DNA of 64,000 nucleotides from Tubulanus polymorphus (taxonomy: Eukaryota > Nemertea > Palaeonemertea > Tubulaniformes > Tubulanidae), in NCBI RefSeq assembly GCF_964204645.1, contig NC_134026.1, forward strand, positions 8,195,450-8,259,449. Direction: 5' to 3'. The notes under the pieces were generated by a model. The model was given only the letters and a program-made list of their open reading frames with translations, was not told where the DNA came from and ran no database searches. Shown one piece after another: positions 40,401 to 55,376 of this stretch. Numbering within the stretch: the first letter of the stretch is position 1; each line of letters starts with the position of its first letter. The translations under genes were made by a program, and so were the position numbers.

Positions 40401-43400
40401 AGAGCCTGGAAAATATCTCTAGCTAAAGCCTCCAATTGTCACAAAGTGTTTTTGGGTAGGCTTACCAAACACCCAACATTGTGGATAGGTCTACTCTACT
40501 GGATTGATGCTTATTCGAACCCCCTATGAAAATTCCTGGGGACGCCTATGTAACTCTTAACTTGCTTTGTTACTACCCTCCAATTAACTAGTGTTTTTCT
40601 CCCTGGGTCTTGTAATGTGAAAGAAGATTTGTTTGTTACAGTTTCATGACTTATTGTCCGAAATATATTGTAGAAGCCTGTCGAAAATGGTAAACATAAA
40701 GAAAAGAAGAAAAATAAAACGAGTCAGTTAGATACAAGTATAGCACCGAATACAAATCACGACCATCCAGTTGAACCAGACACAGGTGAGATATGGAACG
40801 ATACTAACTCAAGAAATGCCCAAAACTCCTTAAAAACTCCTTCAATTTTGAGAAATAGGCAAATTGTACTACTACGCCTACACCTTAATGGGTACAGTTG
40901 GGACCAGGTGATAATCGAATTAGAACCCATGTTTAGAAGTGTAAATGATAATTGTCGATAACAAAACCACCAAATTAATGGTTTACCAAGATAAACGGTG
41001 GCTATTTAGGAGTCTCCTGTAATTGGGATATAAAAGTGATGCAGACACTTCCTCGAAATCTAAAACTTTTTTCCTTTAAAACTCCTTATAACCTGGATTG
41101 ACTGATCAATAGGGACCCTAATGGATGCCCAGCATTTACAGACCAGTTTTAACTTCAACCGAATTTGCCAATAGTTGAAAATCAGATCAGTTTGGAAAAA
41201 TAACAAGACTTTGATAACTTGTGCTGTACCGGTATTATTCTTCAGGTGATAAGTGTAGTAAGAAATTCAACTGGCTGAAGACGATTGTCAGTCTGTTAGA
41301 ACACAAGTCTGATAAAGAGATGGGAATAAACAAGCTGAAAAAGAAAGTGAGTGGATTGATACATAGATTATTTACAGTATTTTACACTTGTTGACTCAAG
41401 GCTGGTCGAGCTGGGCAATGGTTTTGCAGATGATGATTCGTTCATGAAGGTTTTTCAGCTAGGTTTGCTCCCATCTCCCCGAAAACGTATTCTGTGATGG
41501 ATTATGAAACAGCTGCGTCTTAAACACTAGGATCTGTAAACATTCATAAACAAAGTGACTCAATTCACGTGGATCATGGTACCGGAAAACAATGGTCTCA
41601 AATAGTCCCAGAGTCTTTGAAACGGAACCATTTTACAAAGTTTCTCTGGGGATGACCCCGAAACCCTTGAAAAAATGCGAATTTTTTGGTTGACACCTTG
41701 CGCCATCAGATATGGGCCGGGCCAATCAATGTCAACTCGCTTCAGACCAGTGTGGACCAGCCGTACCAGTGAAAATCAAACCCACCCTACTTCCAATTTT
41801 GAATTGCCAAATACACTAACACTTTAAAACAGCCATCGTACAGACTTCACATACTGATGCATGCAGGCTGCAGATGAATACTTACAGTCAACTCCCGAAA
41901 TGCCATTCACATCAGTGCAGAACAATTTTGGTGGTATAGAGAGTATGGCGGTATATCGGGGGTGTTTTACTTTGTTAGCCCACTTGGGACTTTAGTCCCA
42001 CTTGGGACTTTAGTCCCAGCGGGCTATTGCGTTCACTTTTTGTCCGTCGTCCGTCCGTTCGTCCGTCCGTAGACGGAATCCAGTTATTTTGGGAAGTTTT
42101 GAAGACACTTCAAGGTAATGTCTTGATATTTGGTTTATACATGTTTCTACCCTAGACACATCTTCAGCCCAAGAACTGGCCCTATCAGAATCAAGATGGC
42201 CGACTGGCAGCCATTGTTGTTCGCCAAAATCAGGACTTTTTACACATTTTCGAAGTTTACGAGGGAAACTTTGAAGACTATATGATCTTTCGAATATATT
42301 TGAATCTACCAAGGGCCCATCAGCATAAGAAAAATTGGGTCCATCTGACTCAAGATGGCCGTCCTATGACCTTTTTAGTGCCCAAAAATGTCAATTTTGG
42401 CCAGAATTCTAGGTCCTGTAGCTTCCTACTGGTTTGCCATTTCTCATTGCAATTTGTGATGGGTATTCTTTGTAAAGGGATGTTTTATACCTGAGATAGG
42501 TATTTTTGATCCGCCAATTATGACGCAATTGGCGGCCATCTTGGTGTCATTAGTACTCATTCGTAGGTGGGAAAAAGTTTTTCGACATTATATTGTTACC
42601 TAAGCATATTTTGTTACAACAATGAATTAGAAAGTTGTAGCGTATAACGTGTTCTATGATTGGGGTGAGTTTCAAGTTCATTGTTTTTTGTATATGGCCA
42701 CCAGGGGGCGTTGAATAATACAATATCTTAGTATTTCTATATTATATTTGTACCAATACATATTTGCAATCAATTGCAAAGTTGTAGCTCATGACATCAT
42801 CTATGATTGTGGTGAGTTTTAAGGAAATTAGTCTATATGGTCACCAGGGGGCGTTGAATAGTAGAATAACCTGGTATTTCCTTATTATATTGGTACCTAG
42901 GCATATTTTGTTACCATGATCAATTGCAAAGTTGTAGTTCATGACATGTTCTATGAATATGGTGAGTTACAAGGTTATTGGGTTTTGAATATGGTCACCA
43001 GGGGGCGTTGAATAGTAGATTAACTTAGTATTTCCATATTAAATTAGTAACGAGGCATTTTTTGTTATCACAATCAATTACAAAATCGTAGCTGCTGACG
43101 TGTTTTATGATAGTATTGAGTTTCAAGGTCATTGGTTTTTGTATATGGTCACCAGAGGGCGTTGAATATTGAAATTGTTAGATTGTTGAGCATTTGAAAC
43201 CACTTCCCAAGTGGGCATGGTGTCCCTGGACCCCTAGTTTTTGTTTAGAGGTGGGGGTGGCAGTAAATGGGAGGGCGGTAAGAAAGGATTGTTGTTTTTT
43301 ATACTGGTGTATGCATACTTATTTCTGTTATGTAGGTGATAGCAGAGTACATGGAAAAAGGCGGCAAACGAACGAAGTCGGAACACGAACTATGGGCTAA

Positions 43401-44949: not shown

Positions 44950-45090
44950 GGGCCCAGTTGCACAGTCGTGACTTAAGTCCAAAATTGGTCTTAAATCTTA
45001 AGACTGGTCTTAAGTTGTTAGATTGAGTATAGAACTAAGTTGGTCTTAGACCAGTCTTAAATCTAAGCCATGACTATGCAACTGGCCCCA
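44950..45090. mobile_element. Hairpin MITE of the GGGCCCAGTTGCA group
   Basis: The ends GGGCCCAGTTGCACAGTC and GACTATGCAACTGGCCCC are inverse. The arms repeat CTTAAGACTGGTCTTAAG. A half-copy lies at about 49236-49290. Confidence 0.75.
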
Positions 45091-45438: not shown

Positions 45439-45448
45439 TTTATTTATT
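45439..45448 (-). terminator. Double polyadenylation signal, putative FGFRL1 3' end
   Basis: AATAAATAAA on the minus strand, giving two overlapping AATAAA signals. It lies 15 bp beyond the most distal miR-10 seed match, at the edge of the repeat-poor tract that follows the FGFRL1 stop codon. Confidence 0.5.
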
Positions 45449-48113
45449 GCTTTCTTAAATCGACCCTGTACAAAATATCTATGACTTTGGTCATATACTA
45501 TGACAATGACACTACAGTAAAACATAAACATTGATTGTCCTATGTTACAAGCAGCTATGCAATCAAAGAATATATTTACACATATATTGTTTATTGGACC
45601 ATAGTTGCCGCCATTAGAATAAATATGTCTTAATAATTTTTCTTTTTTTTGGAAATTTAGTACCTGCATAAAAGCATTCATCGTGATAAGGGATAATGCA
45701 GGCGGTGCTTTTGTACAGATTCAGGTACCAATACATGCTTAAATAACTAAATCCTGGCTCGAGTAATTTTCTGGAACCCGTCTCACAATTATTGATATCT
45801 ATATATAAGTATAACAATTCGAATTTTCAAAAATACAAGTCAGCAGAGTTGAATTTCAACTCAAAACTGTTGAAATTGCTGTTGTATTGGTACAAATTTC
45901 AGGAATAATATCTGCTATATAGAATATCCCCTAAAGTCGACCAAAATATCTAAAAGAATTTCGTCGACAACTATGGCCCACTAACGGCATCTCTGTCCCC
46001 AAAAAAGCTACAGTAACATATACAATATGATGCACGAAATGGTTTTGAAATACAGACCCTGGCTTCCGGAACAAAAAAATAAAAATCTCAATCAATGAGT
46101 TTAAAAAAAAACAACAAAAATGTCATCAAAATAATCATTTTACATATAGAAGAATAGATAGAATGAATTAGATTTCGCGTAAAGCCTTATAGTTTATTTC
46201 TAATTTCGAAATGTTTGCTTTAAAATCAATTAAACTACGACCCTGTTCTTCGATTACGTAATAAAATCAAACGTTTTGGACACTGGTGGTTAGAATATTC
46301 ATCCCATCATTAAATTTAATGAGTGGCTATACTTAGATGTATGTCTGGTTAGATTTGCTAGATTGACGCGGGTCTACAATCTTAAGTTCGGAAATACAGG
46401 AACCGCCGACGCCAACATTACTCATATTAATGAATCGTTTTTCAATCAAAACCGCTATTTCATCCATACACCAACGCCGATATACGAATACACGTATATA
46501 CCATGCGATGTATATACATTTATTTATATATACCCTGTTGACAATTATTATATAACGAATCTTCTTATTTTAAACTATATGGAATCACAATAATACACAA
46601 AGACGTGGAAGCATAAAAAATACAAAATAAATTATTTGGTTTGTGTCACCGTCTATTTACACAGACTCGCCGTTATAGAAGTACGCGCGAAACATTTCTA
46701 TTCATTTTCACGTTCTTCGTAATTGTACGAGTATACTTTCTTTCATATGATTATTTACAGTAATTCATTTCGTTAATCAGAGAGCTGTCATGGATATTTT
46801 TATCGGATTTTAGAATACTCATATTATATATATATATATTATGATAAAGCTATCACACGCGAATCTAGAGCCAAAATGCAGAAATCGTCCGCACGCGCCA
46901 CACGCGACTGGTGCTACATTTGTTTTTACACAAAAATATCGTAGAAACTTTCATATATCAATATTTATAGAGCAACGCAACTGCGAAAGCAACACATATT
47001 CCATACCGCCGTACTTAATTCGTTGAAATCATCAAATCGTCTTTAAGCAACGCCGACGATGAAGATACAAAAATGGAGAGCTACAATAGTTCGATAGAGA
47101 CGATTGGAGGGAACATTCTAGAAAAATCGCTAAATTTCTTTTAAAAAACTGTATTTTCATTTCGAATATATTGTTCTTTACGAAAGTTTTATTGCTTTAT
47201 ATACGCGGTGTGCATACGTTACTATTATTGCATGTGCAAATGACAACGGAAATTTGAAATTATCTATTTGTTGGCCGGTGCAAAATCTATACCAAAACGT
47301 TAAATTCATGGGGCAGAGTCACCAATTTTACTTGAAGGGAGTAGGATTACATTTACTAGCTAGATATATAAATAGTGCCCGCGTACGCATTCTTATTTGA
47401 CTATTTGATATAATTATTCTCTCCTAAGATTATTGAGAATGGGAAACGTACAAATATGATAAATGCAATGATTTCTACGCGAAACGCCCAGGAGTTGATA
47501 CTTGGAGAATTTTAAGGTATAGTAATGCATCGACGTTGGAGATACATATCAGTAACACATCTTTTTGCGTGTTCTTTTTCCATAAAAATTCCGGTCTTTC
47601 TATGTTTTTTTCTTTCAGTCCGAAAATATTCAATATCCGCCATTATCCATTATAACGTCTTTCCTTATAGCGTAGGAAGTTGTTTAGAATTTTCTTCGAG
47701 TTTTGGTACCGGACTAAAATATGATAGATATTGATGAAAAAAACTTCTAATTAGAATTACCCTGTAGATTAAAACATACTTTTGAGGTCGCGGTCATATC
47801 ATAATGAACGAGCCCGGTGTATTAAGTAAGAGAAATCGGATGCCCCCGGCCACCGCTGAACTCATCATCCATAGAAAATCCAAAGGAAATCACGGAAATA
47901 CGGTATCGCCGAGGTAGCAGACGTATTTTCAATTACCAGCATGACATTATCAATCACATGAAACCAATTGACTGGAACTATCATTATTTTACCAGTGCGG
48001 GGAAGGCACGGCTTATAACGAGAGAACGAACGAGGAAAAAAAATCATTCGCATTTCATACATCAGTAATCATAAGTACTTAATTTTCTAAGTACAATCAC
48101 TACAATATATGTT

Positions 48114-48139
48114 TATATATATATATATATATATATATA
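48114..48139. repeat. TA microsatellite
   Basis: About twelve TA units. Confidence 0.9.
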
Positions 48140-49495
48140 GGTATATGTATTAGTATACATCACAAAAATACAGGAAAACAATACTATCCGTCGCGAAGAC
48201 GATCGAAATAAAAGTGCCACGATTAGAATTTAGAAAATTAAATCGTATCGTTACTTTAACGGAATGCTGCCTCGTTGTACTAGGGGGCAGCCGATAGTCG
48301 GTATCAATACACAAGTTATGCCTTCTTAAAACTAAACGCGGCCTTATAGTCTATTGTAGTAGGATGCCTACTATATACCTTGTTTTTCAATTACCCTGTG
48401 AACGATTTCTTATTCGAACGAACAGACGCTTCGTTTTTATAGATTTTATATAGAAGCGCAAAATCAACGCTCGTCTTAATCTTAATTATATACCCTGTCA
48501 TTCGTGATCATTTACGTTAGTGTATATTGAATAATGAATAACGTTTTACGATAATTTCTTTTTTTTTCTTTAAAAACTCAAAGAGTACCCTGATTACTCC
48601 AATAACCCTGTTCACGATCATACGATGAATTGCGAGAAAGGCTGAACACGAATGATACCTTGCTTCTCCTCGGATCGGCCGGGTCATTTTAGTAAACCGC
48701 AATGAAATTTGTTATCAGTTCATTTCTACAGCTGCTCGGTCTGTTATGGTTAGCCTGATTATGATTTAAAAAAATAATGCACAGAGTAGATAGGCGGCCG
48801 ACCGGGTCAACAGAAAGGAAAAACAAGGTATCAATTTTCTAGCCTAAAATCATACTTTAAATTAATTTTTTATGAGTACCCTGATTAATCCAATTAATGA
48901 ATGAATGATTACACCCTGTTCACGATTCACGATTCTTTCGAATCCCCCCACCCGCCCCTAATTTTTAACCGCTCGTTTTTTCATTCATCGCAGTATTCAA
49001 CTTCGCGATATTCGTTTTTGTTCTATCATAATTTTACTCTCAGCTTGACGAAAGCCGTAGCGATGAATGCAACGTGCACGATATTATGCTTGAGTACACC
49101 TCAAATCGTGACGAAACATAACGAACAGCATAGCTGCGACAACTTAAGAGGCCATCCATTAAGTATGCATCGAAATCTAAATTAAGACATTTTTGAAAAA
49201 TTCTGAGAGGCTTTTACGTCAATGTTTAAGCCTCAGGGGCCGGTTCCGTAGTCATGGCTTAGACTTAAGACCAGTCTAAGACCATCTTAGTTCTATGGAA
49301 AAACTAACAAATTAAAAATTAAACAATGATATTGTTATGACTGCACGATAAAACCGTTTTTGAAAATGGCCCATAGAATTGGATAGAAACGTCAAATTAT
49401 CATTCAGTTTTTTTTTCATTATCTTGTGGGATTTCACTTCAATTATATCAGATAGTCACTTGTCTACGGAAACCAAAACGATTTGACGAGTTGTG

Positions 49496-49592
49496 CTACA
49501 AATTCTCATCCTCCCCGGGCAAGGGTTTCGTGCTGTGACCGACTCAAGCGATGCCATCAGGTTCGAATCCCTGCCGGGTGGGAAGCGAATTC
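49496..49592 (+). mobile_element. tRNA-derived SINE, family A
   Basis: B box AGGTTCGAATCCCTGCCGG with the GCGATGCCATC block shared with 31148. It is inserted in the putative FGFRL1 3' UTR, antisense to it. A TTGTGGGATT block lies just upstream at about 49424. Confidence 0.6.
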
Positions 49593-50237
49593 TTTGTGTA
49601 CAGAAAATTTTTAGACTATGAATACTTAATGAATGGCCTCGTTCGATGTACATGAAATAAATATTCAACATTCAAGAGATTTAAGAAGAATCGATGTGAA
49701 TCCTAACAAAAAAAGAAACATGACCATATCATACGTATATAGTCAACATATTTGTTTTGATAGCTTGACATAAAAATTTCATTTTCACGATAACTTTCTC
49801 AAAATGACATTAATAATGATAGCAATGATAACAATAATAATAATTATTATTATTACTACCATCACTGCGCTAATATACAATATCATCAACAACATTTAAT
49901 ATGTAAATAATAATAATCTTTCGCACACGCATACGTATGGTAATTTACATTTTTAAAAAAGAAGAAAAAATAACATATTTCACGAGTCGACGACGACGAC
50001 GTTGCCTCAATATACAATGACTGTGTGAACGCCTTTTTTCTATTATTACCCTGTTGTCCAGTTGAGAACAATACTGTCTATACACCGATATAATAACATA
50101 TACGGACATAACCAAAAAGCACATGCCCACATTTCGTAATTGGTTCATTCCTTTTTTTTCGTTAAATAATGAAGCTCGAGAAGAGGTTTTTTGTTTGTAT
50201 GTTTGTGTATACAATATATCACATAATCGTCACGAAC

Positions 50238-50330: not shown

Positions 50331-53300
50331 CTAGCATTCACCGTACATAGTGTGTTGAGGCGTTTGCATGTACATTCTCTGCATGTTCGACGAATTGTTG
50401 AAGTCCGACTGCGAATGCATGTCCGAATTGTAGTTTTTTAACATTCGTTCGGTGGTCGGCGCAGTGCCCGCGCCCGCGGCCGTGCCCGGCGCGTAGCGTT
50501 TCGCCGGCGTTTTCTGAGGTTTCCTCGTGCATTTTTGGCGCACAACGATTACGATGATTATTATTATAATGAGTAACGCGATCGGAATGCCAATGATTAA
50601 CGAATAGTTTGATATATCGTCCAACGGCGTCGAATTGTGAACCTTTTTCGTATGGCGGTCTAATGGCTTCGCGTTCGGATCTGAAAAAAACCGAAAAAAT
50701 TAGAAAAATAATGACGGTACTTCCAAGAATCACCGGCAAATACATGGGGTCAGTTGCTCTAAGGTTGGATAACCAGCGGATAACACAGTTACAATGCAAT
50801 TTCAATTATCACTATGTCAACTATCCGCTGGTTAACTCTAAACAATTTTTCAGCAACCGACCCCTGCATTTCATTTCCTTTAAAATGGTGTACAGATTAG
50901 GTTTATCAAACAAGATACTGCATAGCTAATTTAGATTCAATGAAAACATATGTTTCAAAAAAGCGTGAACATTATCCAAACAATAAGGATCTCGAGGGAT
51001 CGCCACAAAATGGCGCCTAGAAACTGGAAGCTTCTTTATTATCTCTGAGTTTCATTTATCTGGTATTATTCTGATCGTTAAACTATGATGAAACCGGCGA
51101 TATTTAGATAGTCCATTGGCAACGAAATGATTGACGGAAAAATCTGAATTAAATGTCGAACACATTACGGTTGAGTGGGGATGTGCTATTTCGATCGGGA
51201 AAGTGAAACTTGACTATAGGAAAGTCCTTGATCAAGATACGTTACGCACCGCATTAACGGGCGATTCTGTAAACAACATTATTGAACGTTAATGCACCCG
51301 TAACTAGATACGACGAATACTCTTAACGGCGTATATTTACCTGGCGTTACCACTAAATATGCTTCTTTGTAGTTATATCCGCGGTTATTAGCACCAAGAC
51401 ACACGTACATGCCGGCATCTTCCGCTCGTGCGTTGTGAATTGTCAGTTTATTTAAATAGGAGCCATCTTTGCGGAACCAGACCTCTCCCTTTTTCAGCAC
51501 GTGTAAAACCATGCCGTTCACTTCGATAGTTTGATTCGGCTGCGTGACGGGCATTTTACTGTCTAACTTTTTCAACCACTGAAACGGTTAGAGTATAGGA
51601 TGATGAATGATACAATCTATATAGGAGCCAGTTGCTCAAAAGTTAGCTTAAGATAACCGGTGGATAAATATCATAGTTAAAAGAACTTTTAATTGTCACT
51701 ATGTCAACTATCCACTGGTTAACTCTAAGCAACTTTTGACCAACTGGCCCCTGGTTGTACAGACAAACTATCAGAGGCTTCAGTTGAGATCTTTTTATAC
51801 CCAAAATATCATAAACTGACATGCAACCAGACCCACGACTAAAACAGAACCATAGTACAGTGGAACAAGTACCAGGTACTCCTCTCTATCAAAGGGGATT
51901 AAAAAAGCATCAAATTATTAAAATGGACTTTTTGAAGCCACTTTCCAAGACATAAGTTCTATCAGTTCCCAGTTTTCTCAACACCCAAATCCCGAATTCC
52001 AAGTGTAGAGTGCTATCTCAGCTTCTCGTTGAAGATTCAACCTTTTTAACATTTTCCGTTATAATCGAATCGTAGGAACTTTGTCCAACAAATGTATTAT
52101 TGTATAATAACATTCAGATTCACTTAATACACAAAACAAACAACACTTACCGTTATATGAGGAGCCACCTCGCTGCGAACCTTACATTGGAAGGAAGCCG
52201 TGTGACCGAACTGAACAGTAGTGTTCACGGGATGTGGTGGAATTAACTCCGGTTTCAACATTAGTTCGCGTTCTGTAAATATCATAAACATCGCATGTTA
52301 TATCGTATAAATATCTTAAGTGTATGTGCCAGTTTTTCTTAAATGTTACAAGAAGACCGAATAGCCGAAAACTAATGAAAATCACTACGACCTCATGGTA
52401 CAGAATTTCATATGAAAATCCTCTCTCGAGACCTCGGAGAATTATCGGAGCATTATCAAATCCGATAGTTAATCTTAGGTCCGTATAGTTTTTGATGGAC
52501 AAAAAACTAAAGCGATCACGGTCTTTTGAGCAACACAGGATCTCGAGAGAGTATAGGCTATATACACTTTATAACGCGTGTTGAAAAAAATAGCAATATA
52601 ATTCTGCAATACAAAATTACGAAATCTGCTAATTTCAAATTTTCATTAGAAACTACGTTTCAACTAGTCACTTCCGGCCACCATTCCATTTGACGATGGC
52701 TGGAAGTGACCAGTCGAAATGTCGTGGCTACTGGAAAATCGAAAATTCGAAATAAGCAGATTTCGAACTATTTCGTTTTATTAATCAAAGATTGACAAGG
52801 TTGAATAATAGTAAATAAGAATTTGAATGATCCGGTATCTGCAGCAAAATTTACAAAATCTCTGACGTTGCCCACACTCTCGACTTGAATGTCTCTTCGC
52901 TTCTTACGCGAGAACGGACATAATGGAGACGAGAATATTTTGAAATATCAAAGGTGATGCAACGCTCCAGAGGATGATGTCATCTTTTCCTCTGGCAGTC
53001 GTTGTTTCGTTCTCATCAATTTTCATTAATGTATTTTTATATGCTGATGTGTTTAATGCTCCCCGCGGTGGTAATTTATCCTAAATTATGCAAACACGAA
53101 TATGCTTATCGTTCCCATGGGCTGAATGAGCGATATTGTATTGCGTAATAGATCGTCGGAAAAAAATATCCTCGCTTATTAATCGTGAATTAAAATTCTT
53201 CCTCTTAGGCGGAAAAAAAATAGAATTCACCGCGAAATATATTCTACAAATCAATGAAGACTATTTGTTTTGTAAACTCGCAGAAAACGAAAATATTGTT

Positions 53301-55376
53301 CTTCATAGATAAGCTTATTCAAAAGTTTTTTATTCATTTATTTTATCAAATTGACATTGAAACTTTCGGACAGCAAGCTTTTTCGCGTCTAGCGCCAAGA
53401 CTTTGTGGAATAAATCAAATCTTTCCGATTTATGTCATCTCAATCTGGATCAGTTATAAAGACATCTCAAAACCACTTTGTTCTGTGACTATTACGATAA
53501 GATTTACCCACAGGGGCGCATATTGCTCTGTACTATAGGATCCTTGCGCGATATAAGAACAATTTATCATTCATTATTTCTATCAAATTTAACACAAGCC
53601 TGTGGCACGTAATTCCCGAATCTTACCTATTATTTTAAGCTCAAATGTGTAATTTACATATCCGACGCGGTTTTCGGCTCTGCACATATATTTGCCACTG
53701 TCCTCTTTATGCAAATTGGCCAACTCGAGCGTCCACTGGGACTTCTTGATTCCTTGCGTTTCTCTCCATTCTCCGTCGACCTGTTTGAACCAGGTTATTG
53801 TCGGCCGCGGTTTACCTTTCGCTTTGCATTTCAGCCGGATGTCGTTGCCGACTGGCCGTAGTATCGGCTCCCTCCGTAGCTTCTCCGGGTGTACGAACAA
53901 GGGCGCAACTAGATTTCGAGAAGAAATGGCCAATTAGAAAAATAAAAAGGCTTTTACACCACCCTCGATGACACCGAAATAGGTGCTGCCAATATTCGCA
54001 ATCGATTTAGGCACTACGATAGATAAATCAATCATAAACAGAATTGCGAAATCGACAAAACTGTCCAATACGTTCTATCATCAATTTCACAATGTAAACT
54101 AATGGAGTAGGTTTTTTTCCGCTTCTGTATATAAACCAAATTCAGCCATTTTGATGAAATCTTGAATTTCGCTGTTTTGCAATTGAATGATTCTAAGGAG
54201 GATAAACCGATCAAAGTGAAAATATTTCCGACATTTTTGAATCCACTGTTACGAAGATATAAAGAAAGAATTCATTTCATTAGGACATGAATATCTTATG
54301 AAAATAAAGAGATCAAACTGAAAAGTATGTTTTTGCAATTTTTGAATCCATGTGTACACATATAAAGAAAAGATCGATTCAGTTTGCACCTGAATGCAAG
54401 CCACAAACCACGGAAATTGTAGTCCAGTTTTTTATTGCTTTCTTTAGATTTTGTTAATAACAGATTAAATTCTATATCGAATTACGTTCCGTACGGCAGG
54501 GTCAATTTCCAAGGCAGATTCTCTCCGGGATCTCTCAACACGATCGAGATTACAACCGAAGGATCGGATCTCGATCGGAGGAAAGCAACCAGAAATCCCG
54601 GAGAGAAAAATCGTTTGTCAGCAATAAGAGTATCGGCTGATTTCGCGGAAGCTACACCGTTCGAAACTAGCAGCAAATTTGAAATCAATATGGCTGTTGA
54701 TGATTGGTTAGCGATGAAATATAGCTGATTGCCAATTTCGAGTTGCTACACGGAATTCACACCCGACGCATTCGTTCACCGGGGAACGCAGATACGGAAG
54801 GCTCCGAAGAGACCCGTGATTTGGAATTGAATTTCCTCCGCGCATTGATAGCGTATATAACTCGAGTTAACGCGGGCGAAAATTTGTTACTAGCTTTATG
54901 GTCGGGCTACACAGTGCGCAGAATTTATCAACTCGAAATTGAGCGGAATGAACTGAATACGAGGAATACCCTCGGTACAGGGAGCGAAATGATTATACAT
55001 AAACGTTCGAATCTCCTACCGAAAAAGACACGATTGAATGGGTACCCGCAAAACCAGCTATCCCACCAGATGGCGTGACGAGCAGTAGGTCGTCGGTTGT
55101 CAAAAGTGAACTGGATTTTTAGACTCCCCAATAGGTATATCATCACAGCACCCAGAGAAAAGTTCATTTCGATTTAATTGAAATGTAGAAGAAAACGAAG
55201 GCGGACGACCAACTTGCTACTAGCGAACCTGGCGGATCCTCGCCTGCCATGCGTGGAATCCTCGATTGACACAGCAGCACCCCTGCGGGTACCTCATTGA
55301 CTTGAGATGATGAATATCGATATGAATTTACACTTACTTCCCGGTGAATTTGAAAAGTTCGCCGTGGTATTTCCAT
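50331..55376 (-). CDS. FGFRL1: Fibroblast growth factor receptor-like 1, 3' part
   Basis: Kinase-less FGF receptor relative that binds FGF/heparan sulfate at the cell surface and acts in cell adhesion and signalling. Exons on the minus strand, all in phase: 55338-55376 (39-bp linker), 53627-53908 (Ig2), 52151-52272 and 51341-51578 (Ig3), 50331-50680 (transmembrane and tail). Ig2 has [16 protein letters not shown] and [12 protein letters not shown]. Ig3 has [29 protein letters not shown], and the family-specific KDGSYLNKL and [14 protein letters not shown]. The TM helix is [20 protein letters not shown], followed by a tail of about 70 residues without kinase motifs, ending MYGEC. The human tail is His-rich near its end; this one is Met/Gln/Asn-rich. 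Incoming phase 1 shows that upstream exons exist. Signal peptide and Ig1 were not found up to 64,000. Confidence 0.95.
50745..50864. mobile_element. Hairpin MITE of the GGGGCCAGTTGC group
   Basis: The ends TGGGGTCAGTTGCTC and GCAACCGACCCC are inverse. GGATAACCAGCGGATA pairs with TATCCGCTGGTTAAC. It starts 65 bp upstream of the FGFRL1 last-exon acceptor, within the intron. Confidence 0.75.
50866..51040. mobile_element. Solo arm of the long-inverted-repeat element
   Basis: Matches the right arm of 9866-11631 from TGCATTTCATTTCCTTTAAAATGG to ACTGGAAGCTTCTTTATT, about 175 bp, directly abutting the preceding MITE. Confidence 0.75.
51624..51752. mobile_element. Hairpin MITE of the GGGGCCAGTTGC group
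   Basis: Ends GGAGCCAGTTGCTCAAAAG and CTTTTGACCAACTGGCCCC-type inverse. The interior matches 50745-50864 (CACTATGTCAACTATCC). It lies in the intron that splits the Ig3 domain. Confidence 0.75.
52620..52766. mobile_element. Hairpin MITE in FGFRL1 intron
   Basis: CGAAATCTGC pairs with GCAGATTTCG at the ends. The inner stem AGTCACTTCCGGCCA pairs with TGGCTGGAAGTGACC. Confidence 0.7.

Follow-up and report, generated by a model that had tools for sequence, protein, structure and literature searches.

Clustered canonical miR-10 sites in the putative 3' UTR of an FGFRL1-like gene

Introduction

A dense group of words complementary to the miR-10 seed lies downstream of the stop codon of a gene resembling FGFRL1, and this raises the question as to whether these words arose by chance, were brought in by repeated DNA, or serve as sites through which a Hox-linked microRNA acts on the mRNA of an FGF receptor-like protein. 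The role of Hox-embedded miR-10 has long been obscure, and the Hox genes that would be its natural targets show a weak response in flies; in Drosophila, Hox targets whose sites are conserved with high confidence are little affected by the miRNAs of the Hox complex (PMC3290615). The FGFRL (nou-darake/ndl)-Wnt circuits of planarians make FGFRL genes positional-control genes with anterior domains (PMC4865367), and the paper describing these circuits makes no mention of microRNAs. The locus lies in a 64-kb stretch of DNA, referred to as the window (C2:8195450-8259449), in a genome of 267.8 Mb.

The FGFRL1-like gene and its putative 3' UTR

The minus strand of the window carries the 3' half of an FGFRL1-like gene (Table 1). 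Its Ig-domain 2 exon aligns over its full length with FGFR1-4, with Robo, contactin and other Ig proteins scoring equally high or higher, and when used as a genome query it finds a sole near-identical place, its own locus; the second half of Ig-domain 3 is a weak match to FGFR3/4. No kinase domain is found after the transmembrane exon, where the frame ends at a TAG. The predicted product thus combines FGFR-type Ig domains with a transmembrane helix and lacks a kinase, as an FGFRL1-like protein does. A search for the exon of Ig-domain 1 did not find it. The product is assigned to FGFRL1 rather than to FGFR because of its short kinase-less tail and of residues belonging to motifs of human FGFRL1 (45 protein letters).

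From the stop codon and the poly(A) signals, we infer that the stretch 3' of the stop is the FGFRL1 3' UTR. Candidate AATAAA signals lie at 47193, 46524, 46198, 45595 and 45448/45444, the double signal at 45448 reading AATAAATAAA, and a weaker ATTAAA lies at 49900. Within and just past the putative UTR, an element with TCTTAGACTGGTCTTAAGTCTAAGCCATGACTA-like sequence that resembles a short mobile element is present in two copies of opposite orientation (window 49220-49400 and ~45000-45080); further downstream of FGFRL1, a 154-bp unit is repeated in four tandem copies (window 42576-43168).

Table 1. Features of the FGFRL1-like locus, in transcript order (window coordinates)
Feature	Position	Strand	Basis or remark
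FGFRL1 Ig-domain 2 exon	53624..53933	-	comparison with FGFR1-4
Stop-to-stop frame with FGFRL1 Ig-domain 3 first exon	52124..52297	-	frame (25 protein letters)
Stop-to-stop frame with FGFRL1 Ig-domain 3 second exon	51282..51587	-	frame (39 protein letters)
Last FGFRL1 coding exon: juxtamembrane, transmembrane helix, short cytoplasmic tail, without kinase; acceptor ~50683	50334..50683	-	open frame DPNAKPL...MYGEC*
FGFRL1 stop codon TAG	50331..50333	-	
Putative FGFRL1 3' UTR, up to distal AATAAATAAA	45430..50330	-	stop codon and poly(A) signals
miR-10 8-mer ACAGGGTA	50047..50054	-	word scan
miR-10 7mer-m8, duplicated unit, upstream copy	48913..48919	-	word scan
miR-10 7mer-A1, duplicated unit, upstream copy	48877..48883	-	word scan
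Dispersed repeat	48638..48858		40 other copies among the matches listed, 77-80% identical
miR-10 7mer-m8, duplicated unit, downstream copy	48605..48611	-	word scan
miR-10 7mer-A1, duplicated unit, downstream copy	48586..48592	-	word scan
miR-10 8-mer ACAGGGTA	48491..48498	-	word scan
miR-10 8-mer ACAGGGTA	48392..48399	-	word scan
miR-10 8-mer, extended to 12 bases ATCTACAGGGTA, pairs nts 1-12 of miR-10 and miR-993-5p	47758..47765	-	
miR-10 8-mer ACAGGGTA	46531..46538	-	word scan
miR-10 7mer-m8	46240..46246	-	word scan
miR-10 6-mer, additional	46056..46061	-	
miR-10 7mer-m8, 14 bases before AATAAATAAA	45463..45469	-	word scan

Number, strand and enrichment of the sites

Eleven canonical miR-10 sites (five 8-mers, four 7mer-m8 and two 7mer-A1) follow the stop codon on the FGFRL1 sense strand, together with one extra 6-mer on the same strand; a scan of the antisense strand of the ~4.9-kb stretch returns no miR-10 site, and the core CAGGGT occurs 12 times in sense and 0 times in antisense orientation. 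A recount gives the same site types, strand and coordinates as the preliminary description, and a rescan of the 64 kb agrees with its remark that no 8-mer lies elsewhere in the window. The flanks of the sites are AU-rich (0.71 versus 0.66), and accessibility is about twofold that of matched positions, a marginal and non-significant difference (P 0.06-0.12) that amounts to a trend, so that a strong accessibility bias was rejected. The 3' supplementary pairing of the sites is no better than that of shuffled flanks (z -1.6 to +0.4), and an ATCG upstream of several sites, considered as conserved supplementary pairing, was discarded because shuffled flanks do equally well.

Canonical miR-10 sites are more frequent here than chance. 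Against the 11 observed, dinucleotide shuffles of the 4.9-kb stretch (n=5000) average 0.16 sites at least 7 bases long and never exceed 3, a comparison that the preliminary description had put forward as a check on its claim. Whole-genome counts on both strands (ACAGGGT 22,510; CAGGGTA 16,871; ACAGGGTA 4,789) set the expectation at 0.317 sites for one strand of a stretch as long as the UTR; the 11 sites then have P ~6e-14, and nine independent sites, with the duplicated pair counted once, P ~7e-11 (6.6e-11), or ~7e-6 after correction for all 109,000 such windows, these being Poisson values for a genome that contains tandem arrays carrying the word. For the 8-mer alone, five are seen versus 0.044 expected (P ~1e-9). 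Shuffling the whole 64-kb window and counting both strands gives an 8-mer mean of 1.06, with 1 of 100 shuffles reaching five; this is a weaker test, blind to the fact that all five 8-mers fall within 3.5 kb of a single strand.

An unsupervised ranking of words in the putative UTR, against a third-order background drawn from the remainder of the window, places CAGGGT, ACAGGGT and ACAGGGTA first among the 6-, 7- and 8-mers; AACAGGGT is likewise enriched. One-mismatch variants of the 7-mers stand at expectation (4 seen versus 4.2 expected), and the edges of the motif thus coincide sharply with the seed. In a panel of ~50 seeds of well-known conserved miRNAs, miR-10 alone is strongly enriched in the putative UTR, the runner-up being miR-252 (four sites, uncorrected P 0.002, three antisense). 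A general richness of this UTR in miRNA sites was set aside, as the other seeds total 32 sites versus 28 expected.

Origin of the sites

The site pair at 48586/48605 and that at 48877/48913 go back to a single stretch that was duplicated and has since diverged, which leaves about nine independent site origins. Between the two copies sits a dispersed repeat of ~220 bp without any miR-10 site. In the copies, the words and the bases next to them have been kept and the surroundings are unalignable, a retention that is suggestive of selection in what is a single case. The remaining seven sites are without evident flank homology; mean flank identity is 15.4/50 versus 13.8/50 at random, a mean that takes in the duplicated pairs. 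No tandem array was found over the FGFRL1 sites, and tandem or dispersed repeats were rejected as their source, since no array or element carries these sites and local duplication accounts for only one pair.

Elsewhere in the genome, two other 8-mer clusters were inspected and both are tandem repeats. Close, even runs of ACAGGGT or CAGGGTA at C1:1363277-1363812 and 1548653-1549293 are tandem arrays judging by their spacing; transcripts of that strand, should they exist, would be much richer in miR-10 sites than FGFRL1.

miR-10 genes and Hox genes of this genome

Four hairpins with a 5' arm starting UACCCUGUAGA are encoded in this genome, all of them inside the Hox cluster on C6. This cluster comprises ten genes, named from their homeodomain sequences, including Lox5, Lox4, Lox2 and Post2, which mark the animal as a spiralian. 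Amphioxus, initially considered on account of the tandem mir-10 copies, was dropped in view of these genes and of a miR-993-like hairpin. The miR-10 hairpin lies between Hox4 and Hox5, a miR-993-like one (by its 3' arm) between Hox3 and Hox4, and extra copies between Lox5 and Antp and between Lox4 and Lox2. All fold far better than shuffled sequence does (z -4.0 to -8.0); with the Rfam mir-10 model, one scores 49.1, above the cut-off of 47.5, another 43.9, just below it, and the two copies 35.8 and 33. The extra miR-10 copies, at C6:5362968-5363037 (Lox4/Lox2) and 5402695-5402768 (Lox5/Antp), have 3' halves GAACCGAGC... and fall below the Rfam cut-off. miR-100, with a different seed, is also encoded. 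The mature 5' ends of the four hairpins are predicted ones; with their 5' arms, the seed assumed in the preliminary description turns out to be the species' own. Similar extra miR-10 copies are known from Capitella and amphioxus, and those described here resemble Capitella's in cluster position; for Capitella miR-10b and miR-1991, possible seed shifting calls for caution (PMC3394115).

Hox genes served as a control set. Over the entire 7 kb after the homeobox, counted instead of annotated UTRs, eleven Hox genes have 14 sense versus 6 antisense miR-10 sites, with 5 expected per strand (sense P 7e-4), and each gene has 0-3 sense sites. Two to three are found for each of Hox1, Hox2, Hox3 and a probable Post1; the latter is on a separate contig (C7:16.16 Mb), apart from the Hox cluster. 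A miR-10 target network thus seems to be present in this genome, and the number of sites at FGFRL1 far exceeds that at any Hox gene tested.

Proposed mechanism and alternative explanations

FGFRL1 is best read as a very strongly selected putative miR-10 target of the lin-14/lin-4 kind, and its mRNA is likely to be a strongly repressed, probably switch-like, multi-site target of the miR-10 family of the Hox cluster. Strong repression fits the strand-specific, seed-bounded pile-up of sites without repeat origin. One or more of the four hairpins would supply a mature 5' end UACCCUGU, matching the seed of the sites. Argonaute loaded with miR-10, miR-993-5p and the two extra miR-10 copies would then occupy several sites together, as the pairs are 19 (48586/48605) and 36 bases apart (48877/48913), a spacing that favours cooperation. 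FGFRL1 would be sharply off wherever the Hox4-Lox2 part of the cluster is active, and its protein would remain in anterior or Hox-negative cells. A broader proposal, offered tentatively and with more doubt than confidence, is that in spiralians the miR-10 copies of the Hox cluster jointly shut off FGFRL1 and so fix how far posteriorly it extends; the Hox code would then be connected directly, at the post-transcriptional level, with positional signalling through FGFRL, in an arrangement that may be ancestral and akin to the planarian FGFRL circuits.

The preliminary description had left the choice between strong repression and a sponge, and the seed-bounded, sense-only and repeat-free sites speak for the former. 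That the FGFRL1 mRNA should be mainly a natural sponge, titrating miR-10 from Hox and other targets, is very improbable: a single transcript does carry 11 sites, more than any Hox gene tested, but canonical sites on a coding mRNA repress that mRNA itself and a signalling-receptor mRNA rarely reaches titrating abundance. Sponges are marked by very many sites or by extensive 3' complementarity through which the miRNA is protected or trapped, and with 11 sites and 3' pairing at the level of shuffled flanks the evidence does not take this part of the earlier claim past a possibility; the 12-base site at 47758 also falls short of the extensive near-complementarity of potent known decoys. Target-dependent miRNA effects have been discussed for lin-14/lin-4 (PMC3772890), which lends the idea some support, but Denzler et al., in the excerpt quoted in PMC13397817, saw titration only with very high target-site abundance; since titration requires, according to that excerpt, target-site abundance comparable to that of the miRNA, a sponge is unlikely here. 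The words might instead be sites of an RNA-binding protein or some other sense-strand element, with which the strand bias alone is equally compatible and the enrichment of AACAGGGT agrees; this is given very little probability, as the motif is exactly the complement of miR-10 nts 2-8 plus an A opposite nt 1, and its one-mismatch variants lack the usual halo of the motifs of such proteins.

Local duplication or mobile DNA could have left the cluster as a functionless by-product, given that four sites derive from one duplicated pair around a dispersed repeat and that the genome has tandem arrays carrying the word; this is hardly probable, however, with seven other sites in unrelated flanks, a dispersed repeat devoid of sites and an enrichment that persists, corrected or not, for nine independent sites. 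It is also improbable that the stretch lies outside the mature FGFRL1 mRNA, through early polyadenylation or as a separate transcript. Inserted repeats in the region would suit such an arrangement, but an mRNA ending at the first AATAAA (47193) would still keep 8 of the 11 sites, one ending at 46198 would keep 10, and the restriction of the enrichment to the sense strand suggests selection on RNA of the FGFRL1 strand.

Comparison with known systems

Targeting of FGFRL1 by miR-10 was not found in searches of the open-access literature, where the two are co-mentioned in cancer reviews, in keeping with the statement of the preliminary description that no case was known. FGFRL1 does not belong to the Hox genes, and its site cluster is by far the strongest encountered in this analysis; it is a testable candidate for a main target of miR-10, and the pairing would join the Hox and FGFRL systems of the body axis, hitherto studied separately.

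Sponges like CDR1as/ciRS-7 are abundant circular non-coding RNAs with ~70 sites; FGFRL1 resembles them in having many seed sites for one miRNA, but differs as a coding mRNA with 11. The vertebrate HMGA2 3' UTR, with seven conserved and validated let-7 sites, likewise belongs to a coding mRNA on which a deeply conserved miRNA has many sites, although both gene and miRNA differ. The lin-14 sites include bulged, imperfect ones, whereas the 11 sites of FGFRL1 are all canonical seed sites, the gene is FGF receptor-like and the miRNA is Hox-linked. The lin-14 3' UTR of C. elegans, with seven lin-4 sites, produces a sharp switch (PMC3772890), and in both cases the mRNA of one developmental regulator has many sites, here predicted ones, for a single miRNA. 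Hox targets of miR-10 such as Scr (PMC3290615) share the miRNA family and the axial context, and the Hox genes of this genome also have sense sites; in comparison with the fly Hox targets, on which there is little embryonic effect (PMC3290615), FGFRL1 is not part of the Hox cluster, and its sites are far more numerous. Multi-site miRNA targets are a known kind; what would be new is that miR-10 is paired here with a gene of the FGF receptor-like type.
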